DNA of 28,103 bases, taken from the IMG/VR virus record IMGVR_UViG_3300025000_000349, positions 1 through 28,103 of that record; one strand, written 5' to 3'. Positions 2,616 to 12,712 of this stretch are shown piece by piece. Under the pieces are notes generated by a model that made no database searches, was not told where the DNA came from, and saw only the letters and a program-made list of their open reading frames with translations. The position numbers and the translations under genes were made by a program. This DNA is from a virus. Within the stretch, counting starts at the first letter, position 1. Each line of letters starts with the position of its first letter.

Positions 2616-2716
2616 TGAAATCTTTTATTTGTCGTTTGCGTTGGCGTTTCCTGGCTTTTCGTCTTCGCCGCGCCATGGCTCGATATGACAAACTGCGCCG
2701 GGAGATATTCGATTGA
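2615..2716 (+). CDS. Very small arginine-rich protein, 33 aa
   Basis: A 33-codon ORF fits exactly between two genes: its ATG overlaps the upstream TAA (TAATG, 2613-2617) and its TGA overlaps the ATG of the primase gene (TGATG, 2714-2718). The product is strongly basic, about one third Arg/Lys (FICRLRWRFLAFRLRRAMAR near the start). It may be an RNA- or membrane-binding peptide, or it may serve mainly to couple translation to the primase gene. Confidence 0.45.
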   Translation: MKSFICRLRWRFLAFRLRRAMARYDKLRREIFD

Positions 2717-3567
2717 TGACGTGCATTGCCGTTTCGAAATTTCAGATCGCAAAAAAGCTCCCGCCTGGAGACGGGCTGTGGCCGAAATTTAATGCCAGTT
2801 TTGAAAACGTTGAACTGGACACGAATACGATCATGGATTATGTTTATGGTGGTCATGCAGTTACAACCTGGCACTCTCGCCATTGGCGCACAAGTGCCAA
2901 TTTTATGTGCGGCCAGCACCTAGGATTAGATTTCGACTCTGAAGACGAAAAAGCAACGCTCGCATACCTAAAAAAAGACAAGTTTATTTCGCGATATGCC
3001 GCGTTTATTCATACGACCATATCACACAAACCGGACGCGCCCAGGGCACGGGTTTTTTTCACCCTGGATGCGCCTATTATGCAGGCCAAAAATTACACAC
3101 TGGCGGCGGCTTCCCTTTTATGGTTGTTTGGCACAGCAGATCGGGCTTGTCGGGATGCAGTTCGCTTTTGGTATGGCGCGCCGGATTGCACCATGGAGTT
3201 TATCGGCCAGACATTGCCGCTAGATGTAATTAAAAAACTTATCGCGCAATACCAGGAAACAGGACAACACGAACGAAAACAGGCATCGAATAAAAACTAC
3301 GCTATTCCGCCGTCGCAACAGGAAGTAGCAGACGCGCTGAAAATCATCCCTCCGTGGGGCGTTGATTATGAGGATTGGTTGCAGGTTTTGATGGGTGTAC
3401 ATGCGGCATTTGGCGAAGATGGACTGCCGTTGGTCACAAACTGGGCAGATGGAAAACCAGGAGAGGTAGAACAGAAATGGCGCTCATTTGATGGTACGGG
3501 TGGTGTAACGGTAGCAACTATATTCCATATAGCCAAAAAATTTGGTTGGAGAAAAGGCTTGACTTAA
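2716..3567 (+). CDS. AEP-type DNA primase with PriCT-2 tail
   Basis: 283 residues from the ATG at 2716. The N-terminal half carries archaeo-eukaryotic primase signatures: the metal-binding pair in HLGLDFDSED (Asp72 and Asp74) and TISHKPDAPRARVFF with His104, which fits the sxH motif in the usual order. The C-terminal ~75 residues (from QEVADALKIIPP, through EDWLQVLMGVHAAFG, to VEQKWRSFDG and GVTVATIFHIAKKFGW) match the PriCT_2 domain found behind such primases. It would make primers for phage replication. It sits before the DnaD-like initiator and DnaB-like helicase. The catalytic role is inferred from motifs. Confidence 0.75.
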   Translation: MTCIAVSKFQIAKKLPPGDGLWPKFNASFENVELDTNTIMDYVYGGHAVTTWHSRHWRTSANFMCGQHLGLDFDSEDEKATLAYLKKDKFISRYAAFIHTTISHKPDAPRARVFFTLDAPIMQAKNYTLAAASLLWLFGTADRACRDAVRFWYGAPDCTMEFIGQTLPLDVIKKLIAQYQETGQHERKQASNKNYAIPPSQQEVADALKIIPPWGVDYEDWLQVLMGVHAAFGEDGLPLVTNWADGKPGEVEQKWRSFDGTGGVTVATIFHIAKKFGWRKGLT

Positions 3568-3587
3568 TGGAACGCGTCTGGTATTAT
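3559..3587 (+). promoter_or_regulatory. Promoter for the structured RNA before the initiator gene
   Basis: TTGACT (3559-3564), exactly 17 bp, TATTAT (3582-3587): five of six consensus bases in each box. It lies over the last codons of the primase gene. The expected start, 3594, is one base before the first base of the long stem A, which supports a dedicated transcript. Confidence 0.65.
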
Positions 3588-3593
3588 GGAGAT

Positions 3594-3725
3594 GCCACGG
3601 TAAATCTGATTTCGTGTGATAGCACATGGGATCTCACACAATCCATAATTGCGTGCGTATTGCGCCTGTTCAGAATCAGCTTTACCGTGGTGGTAAGTTT
3701 GAGATCCTGGGCAGGCGCAATACGT
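3594..3725 (+). ncRNA. Structured RNA with three interlocking long stems
   Basis: Three complementary pairs are visible. A: 3595-3611 with 3674-3690 (CCACGGTAAA/TTTACCGTGG, one mismatch, then CTGATT/AATCAG, plus a G-U pair at 3612/3673). C: 3629-3636 with 3700-3707 (GGATCTCA/TGAGATCC, perfect 8 bp). B: 3656-3668 with 3712-3724 (CGTATTGCGCCTG/CAGGCGCAATACG, perfect 13 bp). The order is A C B A' C' B', so no two pairs nest. Either they form pseudoknots or the upstream half (3594-3668) acts as an antisense on the downstream half. Each half also has small local hairpins (GTGTGA/TCACAC 3614-3639; TTACC/GGTAA 3682-3696). B' ends 2 nt before the AAGGAG site of the replication initiator, so translational control of that gene is likely. 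A C4-type phage antisense RNA is the nearest known comparison, but the stems here are much longer. Confidence 0.6.
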
Positions 3726-3737
3726 TAAGGAGATATT

Positions 3738-4595
3738 GTGGCGGGATACCGACAATTTCACACCAAATTTTGGAAAGATGAATGGACTATCGATCTTGAA
3801 CCATTGGAACGGTATCTGTTTACCTATCTTTTCACGAACGATCTGAGCAGCATTAGTGGAATATACAGAATACCACTTCGAGTAATCGCCAATGAAACCG
3901 GACTAACAAATGAATTTGTTCAACAGTGTCTTGAAAATTTTGAGAAACAAGAAAAGGTTTTTTATCGTGACAATACCATGTGGGTTGTAAACATGGAGAA
4001 ATATCACAACAACGCCAGTCCAAAGACACAAACAAAAGTACAAAAAGACATCGAAACGATACCAGACAACATTGTCAAACATGCATATCAATGTCATAAA
4101 GATACCGGTATTTTTTGTATTGATGTGGTATCTATACAGTATGCATACCAAACCATTAAAGCTAAAGCGAAAGCGCAAACAGAATCGCAAGCGGAATCGC
4201 AAGCGGAAGCGAAAGGAAAACAATCTCCGCCGCCTTCTGATGATTCCGATCTTGATGGTGTGTCGTATCGTGAGTTGGAAATTGCATTCCGCGAAAAGAC
4301 CGGCATATATCCACCCACGGGCGGTGGAATACCTACACACAAATGGGTGGATGGATTCAAAAAACTTACGGAGCAACATGCTACGCCAGAAGAGATTGCA
4401 GGAACGATTGACGATATGCGAGAACGCGGATTGTCTATTTCTGGCCCATCGTCAATTTTGAATCCTTTGAACATTTATCGGGCAAAACACGGGAATGATA
4501 GTAGTCCCCATGGAGAGATAAGAACCGAACAAATAAAAGTTTTGTGGCCGGATGGAGAAACAGAAATTAGAGAGGTGCAAACTCGTGGAAAATAA
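3738..4595 (+). CDS. DnaD-like replication initiator / replisome organiser
   Basis: 285 residues from the GTG at 3738, with AAGGAG at 3727-3732. Residues ~5-90 form the winged-helix region typical of phage replisome organisers (KFWKDEWTIDLEPLERYLF, then GIYRIPLRVIANETGL and ENFEKQEKVFYRDNTMWVVN). A low-complexity Ala/Glu/Gln/Lys linker (~residues 138-160) separates it from a C-terminal helical part (YRELEIAFREKTGIYP to about 250). Such proteins bind the phage origin and load the helicase, which is the next gene. The leader RNA upstream probably controls its level. Origin repeats may lie inside the gene (4183-4206). The family call is good; origin binding is inferred. Confidence 0.7.
   Translation: MAGYRQFHTKFWKDEWTIDLEPLERYLFTYLFTNDLSSISGIYRIPLRVIANETGLTNEFVQQCLENFEKQEKVFYRDNTMWVVNMEKYHNNASPKTQTKVQKDIETIPDNIVKHAYQCHKDTGIFCIDVVSIQYAYQTIKAKAKAQTESQAESQAEAKGKQSPPPSDDSDLDGVSYRELEIAFREKTGIYPPTGGGIPTHKWVDGFKKLTEQHATPEEIAGTIDDMRERGLSISGPSSILNPLNIYRAKHGNDSSPHGEIRTEQIKVLWPDGETEIREVQTRGK
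4183..4206 (+). repeat. Tandem 12-bp repeats inside the initiator gene
   Basis: AATCGCAAGCGG occurs twice in perfect tandem (4183-4194, 4195-4206), followed by a partial copy (AAGCG) and preceded by related GCTAAAGCGAAAGCGC units from ~4161. They encode the low-complexity linker of the initiator. In several phages the origin lies inside the initiator gene as such iterons, so this is a possible origin; it may equally be simple codon repetition. Confidence 0.4.
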
Positions 4596-5616
4596 AACGA
4601 TATTCGATGATCCGCGCCACGAAAAGTTATTACAACTATGCCAGGAATTTTATCGGCGAATTTATGCCGAGGAAGCGCCAGAGAATATCCACGACTGGAT
4701 GGTTAAGCAAATAGGGAAATTCCAACCGGAAATAGACGCCGGCCCGATTATGGATTGGCCGACCAGTTTTGAGATGTATGACCAGGAGATTGCGAGGCGC
4801 GTAGCATTTTCAAATCTGCCGGAAGAAAAAAGATTATTATATAATTGGCCTTGGACATCATGGAATAATCTTATCGATCCAATTGAGCCAGGGATATTGG
4901 CTGTTTTGGCTGGGCCAGATGGTTCTGGAAAAACAACCTATGCAGAGTGTATAGCTGAGCACTGGGCACGGCGTGGTCAGCGTGTTGTTTTTGTGCATTT
5001 TGAGCTGAGCAAAATAATCATGTTGGATCGGCGCGCCGTCAGACATACGGCGATTGCCAGGCGACAATTAAAACTCGCCGGGGAATTGACGCAAAAAGAT
5101 ATGGCTGACATAGAGGCGGCCAAAGAGAGACTGCTTGCATGGCCGGGTGAAATTACCTATCTACACACGCCGGGGCATTCCATCGAGCTTTTATTGCGCG
5201 AACTTACCCGATTGAAAGAATCTGAAAAATGTGATGTCGTTATTGTGGATTATCTCGAAAAGGCCGCGCCGTCAGCCGCACAATTAAAAGCCTATGGGGC
5301 AAATCAATATCAGCGCGAAGCTAATGATGTTGAATTGCTGAAAACCTATTCTGAAAAAGAACAGGTTCCCATACTCTCGTTATCGCAATTCAGCAAATCC
5401 GGGAAGTCGGCTCGCCTTGAAGATTTGGATAGAAATGCTATGCGCGGGGCGGGTGAGAAATCTGAAAAAGCAAACATTGTTGTGCTTCTTCAGCCAGATA
5501 AATCCGATGAGACTCTCATACATGTAAGACTTGATAAAAACACTCTTGGCCCAAAAGGATCATGGAAACAATTTATAGACTTACCTCGTTTTCAGATTGG
5601 GGATGTAGCCAAATGA
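4585..5616 (+). CDS. DnaB-like replicative helicase
   Basis: 343 residues from the GTG at 4585, chosen because GAGAGGTG lies 8 nt upstream; the ATG at 4552 has no ribosome site. The RecA-like ATPase core shows Walker A GPDGSGKTT (110-118), a VVFVHFELS strand with the Glu of the H1a motif, Walker B in VVIVDYLE (Asp222), and the LSLSQFSKSG motif (Gln268). It lacks the long N-terminal primase-binding domain of DnaB, so it is a short phage version that needs the initiator next door for loading. The start overlaps the initiator by 11 nt and the stop overlaps the HNH gene (ATGA). Confidence 0.8.
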   Translation: MENKTIFDDPRHEKLLQLCQEFYRRIYAEEAPENIHDWMVKQIGKFQPEIDAGPIMDWPTSFEMYDQEIARRVAFSNLPEEKRLLYNWPWTSWNNLIDPIEPGILAVLAGPDGSGKTTYAECIAEHWARRGQRVVFVHFELSKIIMLDRRAVRHTAIARRQLKLAGELTQKDMADIEAAKERLLAWPGEITYLHTPGHSIELLLRELTRLKESEKCDVVIVDYLEKAAPSAAQLKAYGANQYQREANDVELLKTYSEKEQVPILSLSQFSKSGKSARLEDLDRNAMRGAGEKSEKANIVVLLQPDKSDETLIHVRLDKNTLGPKGSWKQFIDLPRFQIGDVAK

Positions 5617-5900
5617 CGAAACCGACACCAGAAGAAATAGAGCGCAGAGTAGAAGAGATAGTGCGGCAAGTCAAGTATGAGGGATATTTGATGTCCCCTG
5701 CCTGGCAGCGGAAACGCAGTGCAAAATTAGCCGAATCCAATTATGCTTGTGAGGTTTGCGGATATGGATTGAGCGACATAGAGACAGCGCCATTAGATGT
5801 GCACCATAAGACGTATGATCGATTTGGACACGAAGAGCCCGACGATCTTGAAGTTCTGTGTCGTCCGTGTCACGAAGAACGACATGGGAGACAATTTTGA
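5613..5900 (+). CDS. HNH endonuclease, 95 aa
   Basis: ATG at 5613 overlaps the helicase stop. The product has a helical N-terminus and a classic HNH fold: CEVCG (Cys46, Cys49), LDVHHKTYDRFG (His64/His65), DDLEVLCRPCHEERH (Asp in the N position, Cys83/Cys86, His87/His91). Four cysteines bind zinc and His65 would be the general base. It could be a free-standing homing or host-DNA nuclease, or a packaging HNH; its distance from the terminase genes makes a replication or homing role more likely. Confidence 0.85.
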   Translation: MTKPTPEEIERRVEEIVRQVKYEGYLMSPAWQRKRSAKLAESNYACEVCGYGLSDIETAPLDVHHKTYDRFGHEEPDDLEVLCRPCHEERHGRQF

Positions 5901-10116: not shown

Positions 10117-10482
10117 ATGGCAGGATTACCGAAGGGAAGAACCAATAACCCAAACGGGCGACCACCCAAAAACAGGGCATTGACTGACGCCCTGGCTTTG
10201 GCATTAAAGCACACAGTTGATTTTCCTGACGGGAGAAAGGTGTCCGGCAAAAAAGTATTAGCCAATTTAGTGACAAGCGTTCTAACAACTGGGCGCATTA
10301 AATTTCCTAATGACACAGAGGAATCAATCGTTAGTGTTAAAGACTGGATGGAATTTGCGAAGTGGGCTTATGGGTATCTTGAACCGGCTGCAACGCGGCT
10401 GGAACACACTGGCGAGGACGGGAACATTTTGGAGATATTAGTCCGTTATGCAGATAGAACTGATACTACCGAGGCCACATGA
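10117..10482 (+). CDS. Probable terminase small subunit
   Basis: 121 residues from the ATG at 10117, with AAGGA just upstream; the longer frame back to 9973 overlaps another gene. The N-terminus KGRTNNPNGRPPKNRAL is the Arg/Gly/Pro pattern of DUF5681-like proteins common next to large terminase genes, followed by a helical LTDALALALKHTV segment and SVKDWMEFAKWAYGYLEP. Position directly before the large terminase, overlapping it by 35 nt, supports a DNA-recognition role in packaging. No clear helix-turn-helix is seen. Confidence 0.6.
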   Translation: MAGLPKGRTNNPNGRPPKNRALTDALALALKHTVDFPDGRKVSGKKVLANLVTSVLTTGRIKFPNDTEESIVSVKDWMEFAKWAYGYLEPAATRLEHTGEDGNILEILVRYADRTDTTEAT

Positions 10483-12712
10483 AGCGCAGCAAGCCATTAT
10501 CAACGGAGCCAAGCGATTTAATGTTGAAAGTTGCGGGCGGCGATTCGGCAAAACTATGCTTGACATACACGAGGCAGCGCCAATGTTATTAGCGGGCTAT
10601 CCTGTTGGCGGCTTCTTCCCGACATACAAAATGCTGTCTGAAACCTGGCGGCAGTTTATTGATGTATTTGCGCCTATTCGCAACAACAAGAACGAGCAGG
10701 AACACCGACTTGAATTAGTCACTGGCGGCGTGCTGGAAATGTGGTCATTGGATGCGGCCGATACTGCGCGCGGGCGCAAGTATAAGCGCGTTTTTATTGA
10801 CGAGGCCGCGATGATACCGAATCTCATGGATATCTGGAACGCCGTCATTCGCCCGATGCTGATTGACTACAAAGGCGATGCGTTTATCAAGTCAACGCCT
10901 AAAGGACACAATGGATTCTGGCAGATGTATCAGTTAGGCAACGACCCGAAAAACAGCGAATGGAAGTCGTGGCAATTCCAGACCGCCGAGAATCCATACA
11001 TTCCACAGTCAGAAATCGCGGCAATGAAGGCAAGCATGCCGGAAATTATATTCAGGCAGGAAATTATGGCTGAGTTTATCGAGTCAGACGGGGCTGTCTT
11101 CCGCCGGGTGCAGGAAGCGGCGCACGTTGAGCGACTAGACAAACCCAAAAAAGGCAGGCAGTATGCGGCGGGCGTGGACGTTGCTGCGGCTGTGGACTAC
11201 ACGGTTGTTACGGTTATGGATGTTGCCAGCAAAGAGGCTGTTTTTGTTGACCGCTTCAACCGCGTGGACTACAATGTTTTAATCGACCGGCTTGAGGCTG
11301 CATATAAACACTGGAGAATGACCGTTATGAAAATCGAGTCCAATTCCATCGGCCAGCCCGTTATAGATGCGCTGCGTGCGCGTGGCATGAATATCGTTCC
11401 GTTTACCACCACAGGCGCTACCAAACAGGTCATTATCCAGAACTTGCAGGCCGCATTCGAAAACTCACAACTCGGCATTATTGATGATCCAATTTTGATC
11501 GGCGAACTATTGAGTTTCGAGAGCAAGCGCAACGCATCTGGCTCGTTTTCATATTCCGCGCCGGACGGGATGCACGATGACTGTCTTTTGGCTGGCACAT
11601 TAATTAAAACGGACGAGGGTTATAAATCTATTGAGAATATCAAGGTCGGTGATTTAGTGCTAACCCACACGGGAAATTTCAAGCGGGTAGAGGCTTTAAT
11701 CAAGAAGCCATTTTCTGGACAATTTTACAAGGTCAAACCTGCTTGTAATCTCACGCTCGGGATCAGTTATAACCATCCGCTATATGCAGCAAAACGAGAT
11801 TATAGCGGCGATCTATCGGGGGAGTTTAATCGTAGGGACTGGGTACTTCCTGGCGACTGGAAAAAAACTTATCGAACCGTTTGTATCAAACAGCAGATTG
11901 AAAATCAAACATTGTTTGAATTATCCGAGGACGATTATTACCAGAACGGAAAATTATCAGGTAATATAAAACTACGCAAGATTGAGATAAACAAAGATTT
12001 TGCGTTGCTTACTGGCCGATTTGTCGCAGATGGACATTGCAGGAAATACGGATTTTATTCCATGGAGCTTGCGTTCAACCATAATGAGCAAGATGACATT
12101 CGGTTTTATTTGGATTATATTAATGGCCTTGGCGTGAAAGCAAGATATGAGCGCATGTCCGGGACCAATGGAGGAAAAATAATTTTTTCCAGCAAGCTTT
12201 TATATCACATATTCTTAGACACTTACAACGAAAACGGCGAGCGGAAATTACCGAAGTGGGTTTGGCGAATTGGCAAACTTGTCTCTGGTGTTTATGAAGG
12301 CTGGATTGCGGCTGATGGATGTGAGACCCGGGGGCACTTGATTGGCTGTTCAACAAGTAAGCAATTGGCGCTAGAAATTCGCGATATTGCTATGGCAATT
12401 GGCAAGTATGCAACCATTCAAGAGTTGCGAAACCGAAAAAGATATGGCAAGCCAAGTAAAGATCAATGTTGGGTAGCCGTGCACGATAAATGGATGTTTA
12501 CCGCCGGCCAGCGCAAGGTAAGTGATTTTGAATATATCTCAACAGCAAAAGTTGGCGAATACTTTTACGAAGGCGATGTTTATAACCTGCAAGTTGCCGA
12601 TGACCGGTCTTTTATTGCCAACGGAATCGTTGTGCATAACTGCGTTATGTCACTGGCGATAACGTGGGATGCGGTCAACAACAATGGCAGCGTGATTTTA
12701 TTTGGAGCGTAG
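10448..12712 (+). CDS. terL: Terminase large subunit containing an intein
   Basis: 754 residues, of which 379-731 are an intein; the spliced protein would be ~401 aa. ATPase: Walker A SCGRRFGKT (28-36), Walker B VFIDEA, coupling motif KSTPKG. Nuclease: GVDVAAAVDYTVV (first Asp), MKIESNSIG (Glu) and GMHDD-CVMSLA (last Asp), the RNase H-like three-metal-ligand set. The intein interrupts the final nuclease motif directly after DD, so the unspliced protein should be packaging-dead. It cuts and pumps genome concatemers into the prohead. The host protein end VILFGA is short, as in compact phage terminases. Confidence 0.9.
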   Translation: MQIELILPRPHEAQQAIINGAKRFNVESCGRRFGKTMLDIHEAAPMLLAGYPVGGFFPTYKMLSETWRQFIDVFAPIRNNKNEQEHRLELVTGGVLEMWSLDAADTARGRKYKRVFIDEAAMIPNLMDIWNAVIRPMLIDYKGDAFIKSTPKGHNGFWQMYQLGNDPKNSEWKSWQFQTAENPYIPQSEIAAMKASMPEIIFRQEIMAEFIESDGAVFRRVQEAAHVERLDKPKKGRQYAAGVDVAAAVDYTVVTVMDVASKEAVFVDRFNRVDYNVLIDRLEAAYKHWRMTVMKIESNSIGQPVIDALRARGMNIVPFTTTGATKQVIIQNLQAAFENSQLGIIDDPILIGELLSFESKRNASGSFSYSAPDGMHDDCLLAGTLIKTDEGYKSIENIKVGDLVLTHTGNFKRVEALIKKPFSGQFYKVKPACNLTLGISYNHPLYAAKRDYSGDLSGEFNRRDWVLPGDWKKTYRTVCIKQQIENQTLFELSEDDYYQNGKLSGNIKLRKIEINKDFALLTGRFVADGHCRKYGFYSMELAFNHNEQDDIRFYLDYINGLGVKARYERMSGTNGGKIIFSSKLLYHIFLDTYNENGERKLPKWVWRIGKLVSGVYEGWIAADGCETRGHLIGCSTSKQLALEIRDIAMAIGKYATIQELRNRKRYGKPSKDQCWVAVHDKWMFTAGQRKVSDFEYISTAKVGEYFYEGDVYNLQVADDRSFIANGIVVHNCVMSLAITWDAVNNNGSVILFGA
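11582..12640 (+). mobile_element. Intein with LAGLIDADG endonuclease in terL
   Basis: 353-residue intein. N-terminal splicing block A: CLLAGTLIKTDEGYKSIE (Cys1 nucleophile) with VGDLVLTHTG; block B: SYNHPLYA. Two LAGLIDADG motifs are spaced as expected: LLTGRFVADGHC and VYEGWIAADGCE, with LPKWVW between (block D). C-terminal blocks: VYNLQVADDRSFIANG and VVHN, followed by Cys+1. All residues for self-splicing are present. The insertion point, the TerL nuclease motif HDD-C, is a highly conserved target, typical for homing. Confidence 0.9.

Follow-up and report, generated by a model that had tools for sequence, protein, structure and literature searches.

The C4 antisense RNA of phages (RF01695), about 77 nt long in its processed form, is compact and has three stem-loops and short a′ and b′ loops (PMC5320573). 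In phage P4, complementary segments are located in a single transcript, the leader of the replication operon, and their pairing controls transcription termination (PMC4825925). The processed CI RNA of P4 pairs with seqA upstream and with seqC downstream, and termination is Rho dependent, as far as a title cited in PMC10362022 indicates. Plasmid antisense attenuators of the pT181 and pIP501 type control a replication gene by a choice between a terminator and an alternative leader pairing, and use a separate antisense RNA that is transcribed from an opposing promoter. Riboswitch-type attenuators exchange strands cotranscriptionally between an early fold and a terminator.

We analyzed a leader located upstream of phage replication genes, together with leaders of related IMG/VR phages, and found two or three colinear interlocked helices without conserved sequence. 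Like the P4 leader, it is a replication-operon leader with internal complementarity, but its second helix, B, often resembles an intrinsic terminator. The likeness to C4 would consist of antisense and target in one phage transcript, pairing near the ribosome-binding site and variable specificity segments; unlike C4, the leaders have neither a C4 match nor a compact 5′ fold, and their 5′ halves folded no better than shuffled sequences (z from −1.7 to +1.2). Membership in RF01695 was rejected on these grounds, since its covariance model did not match: C4 gave no hit in the region at E up to 10, the Rfam search at the gathering threshold gave no match, and a permissive threshold gave nothing relevant. 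Scans of 17 sources gave no match to any Rfam family, in agreement with the earlier note, which had recognized no known RNA family. Like the plasmid attenuators, the leaders would control a replication gene through a choice between a terminator and another pairing, but a simple consensus scan of 10 leaders found no promoter that could consistently give an opposing countertranscript; the sense promoter is the only one that recurs, and a plasmid-type antisense attenuator was rejected. A window-wide search for the complement of the leader found matches of only 11 nt. Cotranscriptional strand exchange would be shared with the riboswitch-type attenuators, but no conserved aptamer sequence is present across the 19 types described below.

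The window is the whole stretch of DNA that was analyzed, the 28,103-base IMG/VR virus record IMGVR_UViG_3300025000_000349 (positions 1 to 28,103). The features of the locus are as follows.

2713-3567, + strand: upstream gene, prim-pol type primase with a PriCT-2 domain (PHROG and Pfam matches; conserved in relatives)
3559-3587, + strand: sigma-70-like promoter TTGACT-17-TATTAT with an extended −10 TG; predicted only, with a predicted +1 at about 3594
3594-3726, + strand: interlocked leader RNA, type T1, from the predicted +1 to the base preceding the Shine-Dalgarno (SD) sequence (identified by shuffles, scan and folding)
3595-3611, + strand: 5′ arm of helix A, CCACGGTAAATCTGATT, pairing with 3674-3690 (16 of 17 positions paired)
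3629-3636, + strand: 5′ arm of helix C, GGATCTCA (8 bp; P about 0.0085)
3656-3671, + strand: 5′ arm of helix B, inside the A:A′ loop (16 pairs including G-U)
3674-3690, + strand: 3′ arm of helix A (A′), pairing with 3595-3611
3700-3707, + strand: 3′ arm of helix C (C′), TGAGATCC, 8 bp with 3629-3636
3707-3724, + strand: 3′ arm of helix B (B′), pairing with B and ending 2 nt 5′ of the SD
3727-3732, + strand: SD sequence AAGGAG, followed by GTG at 3738 (read from the sequence)
3738-4595, + strand: downstream gene with a GTG start at 3738, DnaD-like helicase loader / replisome organizer (profile matches)
4552-5616, + strand: next operon gene after the loader, DnaB-like replicative helicase (profile matches)

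Along the RNA, the helix arms run A C B A′ C′ B′, as the earlier note had reported, with one mismatch in A, 8 bp in C and 13 bp in B. The 13 Watson-Crick pairs of B form its core (3656-3668 with 3712-3724), and inclusion of G-U pairs gives 16 pairs over 3656-3671. The 2-nt distance between the last helix and AAGGAG was also borne out (B′ ends at 3724, and the SD starts at 3727). No other helix in the entire 28-kb window scores as high as A and B. Their crossing score is 14.6, whereas dinucleotide shuffling of the region 5,000 times gave at most 10.2, and 200 whole-window shuffles gave nowhere more than 13.5. Helix C by itself has modest support (P about 0.0085, calculated for the gap that contains it), but a counterpart occupies the corresponding position in two unrelated relatives, T5 and T7. 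The description of the arrangement as far beyond chance holds for the A/B interlock, which lies above all 5,000 local shuffles; helix C is weaker. Promoter-like sites of this kind are expected 1.3 times per 500 nt from sequence alone, and the window promoter is therefore unsurprising by itself. The proposed hexamers are present, and support for the promoter comes from its position, which is identical in all relatives having a leader at the primase-loader site, rather than from the hexamers alone. The downstream gene, previously called a replication initiator, is a DnaD-like helicase loader / replisome organizer judging from its profile matches; the word initiator is only approximate and unproven.

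Related IMG/VR phages share a common leader plan, promoter / A / B / A′ / B′ / SD, usually between the primase and loader genes, and the window leader has these elements in this order with an interlock above that of shuffles. The first set of relatives consisted of primase relatives, most of them with 57-63% identity. Directly 3′ of the primase stop codon, a promoter precedes a leader that follows the interlocked plan with an unrelated sequence in L002, L004, L005-L009, L010-L012 and L015/L016; in L003, L013, L028 and L035, the next gene follows the primase directly, and no leader was found there or elsewhere in the sequence examined. A helicase search added the leader of L066. Whole-contig scans revealed that an HNH gene is inserted between the primase gene and the leader in L085, that the leaders of L110 and L107 are upstream of the primase gene and before other genes (directly 5′ of an HNH-like gene in L110), and that L066 has a second leader upstream of the primase gene, unrelated to its first. 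The T9, T10 and T12 leaders precede HNH or small genes upstream of the primase gene. In L014, the contig of L107, a promoter and a short HTH/excisionase-like ORF follow the primase gene (after 5840), and the leader is upstream of the primase gene instead. Weaker terminator-like leaders before genes upstream of the primase gene were seen in L002 (4486-4566, T11) and L085 (9306-9160, minus strand, T13); they may be reduced members but are too weak to count.

In total, we analyzed 21 leaders. BLASTN among them found similarity only within the pairs L015/L016 and L131/L132, plus one 13-nt match, and we accordingly assigned them to 19 sequence types. In cultured phages, no relative of the leader region (BLASTN) or of the L010 or L131 loaders (tblastn against phages) was found. 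The primase regions of other phages had no strict counterpart, and in those that were inspected the primase is a longer fused protein. Among 18 contigs, none encodes a tyrosine integrase, ParA or ParB; one contig has serine recombinase and CI/Cro-like HTH genes, given which at least one leader carrier looks temperate.

Gapless crossing scores alone also captured pentapeptide and low-complexity repeats, and we therefore adopted composition-matched shuffles. Coding repeats of the pentapeptide-repeat and other low-complexity kinds that mimic crossing helices are found at 10476-10796 of L002 and 1739-2035 of L016. The interlock energy was above every shuffle in all seven types tested (z 4.2-11.6). 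From a scan of 665 intergenic windows, the 34 with the best composition-corrected scores were ranked by z, and these leaders took the first seven places. When 152 promoter-to-SD leaders were scanned, the top 13 were replication-cluster leaders with an excess of 9.5-24.5 kcal/mol, and the next two (7.0 and 6.8 kcal/mol) look like further members on inspection. In a held-out test on loader relatives, 8 of 47 leaders were clearly separated from the rest (10.1-21.5, the next being 5.9), and all eight share the interlocked plan; a further set gave L173 and L141/L142.

Compensatory changes in A and B were found in the two diverged pairs. In L015/L016, all three varying pairs among the alignable A and B pairs are compensating double changes, and the inner part of A has been replaced on both arms. 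In L131/L132, A and B have three compensating double changes and further consistent single changes; a few pairs are broken at the ends of the helices, and one is broken within B. Leaders of the same type, in T4 and in T5, differ by 1-4 substitutions and at most one indel, versus 19-22% third-position divergence in the primase gene. This low within-type divergence indicates purifying selection on the leader but could also stem from recent exchange of leaders between phages. Exchange with sharp borders was found among L005, L010 and L012, in which the leader plus loader or the loader alone has been swapped on backbones that are about 90% identical. L005 and L010 are about 91% identical through the primase gene to the −35 box, their leaders and loaders are fully different, and the alignment resumes in the helicase gene; the leader of L010 is also that of L012, whereas their loaders differ.

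To follow the growing RNA, prefixes were folded by energy minimization, which ignores kinetics, topology and pseudoknots; in these folds, A:A′ was complete or nearly so once A′ had emerged in 11 of 13 leaders, and a later flip to B:B′, usually near the end of B′, was predicted for 12 of 13, with L016 staying in A. L123 and L118 are also predicted to remain in the A state. By our own tally, 13 of the 19 types have a T-run at B′ or 3′ of it (T2, T4, T6, T7, T10, T12, L123, L143, L131/L132, L144, L117, L118 and L141), and B:B′ of these types resembles an intrinsic terminator, in which a T-run follows a GC-rich helix upstream of the gene. The run is weak in T3, T8, T9 and L173 and absent from T5 and from T1, the type of the window. 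The run that follows B′ in L141 has nine Ts; the name of this contig (2654587956) hints at an isolate or single-genome origin, not a metagenomic one.

Spacing differs between types. T2, T4, T10 and T12 have almost no space between A and B or between A′ and B′ (gaps of about 0-3 nt), with the T-run at or after the end of B′; by geometric estimate, both full helices cannot fit together in such leaders, and A and B should therefore exclude each other. In T1, T3, T5, T7, T8 and T9, helix A begins at the predicted +1 or beside it, longer gaps separate the helices (12-51 nt between A and B, 8-18 nt between A′ and B′), and the end of B′ mostly lies at the SD or close to it, with that of T8 farther off. 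An anti-SD helix is present in T5 and T8 (P about 0.01), the SD of T8 being paired by an extra helix; the SD of the window is itself unpaired.

At the level of sequence comparison, the topology, the conservation of the architecture and the compensation are demonstrated. That the plan persists at the same kind of site while its sequence turns over completely points to an RNA switch of an undescribed type, which would throttle the replication genes. We consider that the leader is probably a cis-acting two-state attenuator in the mRNA 5′ leader of the helicase-loader and helicase genes. Transcription would start at the primase stop codon, and A would pair with A′ as soon as A′ is made, forming a hairpin that traps B in its loop and leaves the gene ON. 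Once B′ is complete, the more stable B:B′ would displace A:A′ and turn the gene OFF. In most relatives, B:B′ and the T-run would act as an intrinsic terminator just 5′ of the SD; the window copy has no T-run, and its B:B′ would thus affect the initiation of translation from beside the SD, where it may form a pseudoknot with A. Candidate triggers may include transcription speed, a double-stranded RNA nuclease or 5′-end decay, and trans pairing with other leader copies.

Of the readings suggested earlier, that of a promoter-driven structured RNA, be it a two-state switch or a pseudoknot, agrees with the 19 types, the compensatory changes and the nascent-folding predictions; a C4-type antisense/target pair is unsupported as a family. 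The terminator-like B:B′ of most relatives was not visible to the earlier note, since the window copy lacks the T-run. A true pseudoknot, in which A and B (and C) form together as a translation-blocking or stabilizing 5′ structure rather than a switch, is possible for the window leader and would suit T1, T3, T5, T7, T8 and T9, in which the gaps appear long enough for helix crossing by geometric estimate, and T1, T5 and T7 can accommodate helix C as a third helix. We nevertheless find this reading doubtful for the group, because the short-gap types have the same architecture with too little room for both helices. A further reading, for which a C4- or P4-like logic in trans is possible by analogy, is self-antisense control of immunity or dosage: a released leader in the B state would expose its 5′ A, which would pair in trans with nascent A′ of another copy, keep A:A′ from forming in cis and so drive B:B′ and shut-off, the sequence type setting the specificity as in C4 or P4 CI immunity. 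The B state of well-supported leaders leaves 41-80% of A unpaired on average, A and A′ pair best with the arm of their own type (with the least clear difference between L015 and L016), near-identical backbones bear unrelated leaders (L005 versus L010), L066 has two unrelated leaders, and P4 CI RNA provides a precedent by terminating its replication operon through pairing with its own leader (PMC4825925). On the other hand, the 5′ half is not specially folded, the T3 phage has CI/Cro-like genes of its own, and trans pairing must compete with cis pairing, and we judge this control to be rather unlikely.

Less probable still is an RNase III processing site, with the B duplex being cut, or a 5′-end stability element, with the 5′-terminal A helix protecting the mRNA. 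B is 12-24 bp long and often near perfect, and the A state mostly pairs the first 5 nt of class II leaders, which the B state leaves mostly free, but such roles leave the interlocking, the T-runs and the total sequence turnover unexplained. The position of the leaders between the primase and helicase-loader genes would suit a DNA-level element, such as an origin or a primase recognition site, rather than an RNA; this is very improbable, as the leader is always 3′ of a promoter, ends at the SD, and in T9, T10 and T12 precedes HNH or small genes that lie 5′ of the primase gene. Chance secondary structure, in favor of which there is only the expectation of one promoter-like site by chance, is practically negligible and is refuted by the shuffles, the unbiased scan and the held-out replication.

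If the leaders are attenuators, as we favor, interlocking alone can set the order of folding. They share topology, position and folding timing but not sequence, and would therefore be missed by sequence- or covariance-based RNA searches; a scan for promoter, interlocked pairs and SD can be used on any phage collection. If the leaders also act in trans, they would constitute an RNA immunity or dosage system in phages known only from metagenomes. We offer only tentatively the broader proposal of a widespread sequence-free phage attenuator family, in which the first hairpin traps the terminator arm and trans self-pairing gives phage-specific immunity or copy-number specificity of the replication genes.

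Several genes of these phages were observed in passing. The terminase large subunit ORF of the window (10448-12712) has an apparent intein, with Hint and intein-splicing domain matches, and 7111-7470 matches a Lar-like restriction-alleviation protein (phrog_599). HNH endonuclease genes recur in the replication cluster, at 5562-5900 of the window and in L085 and L110.
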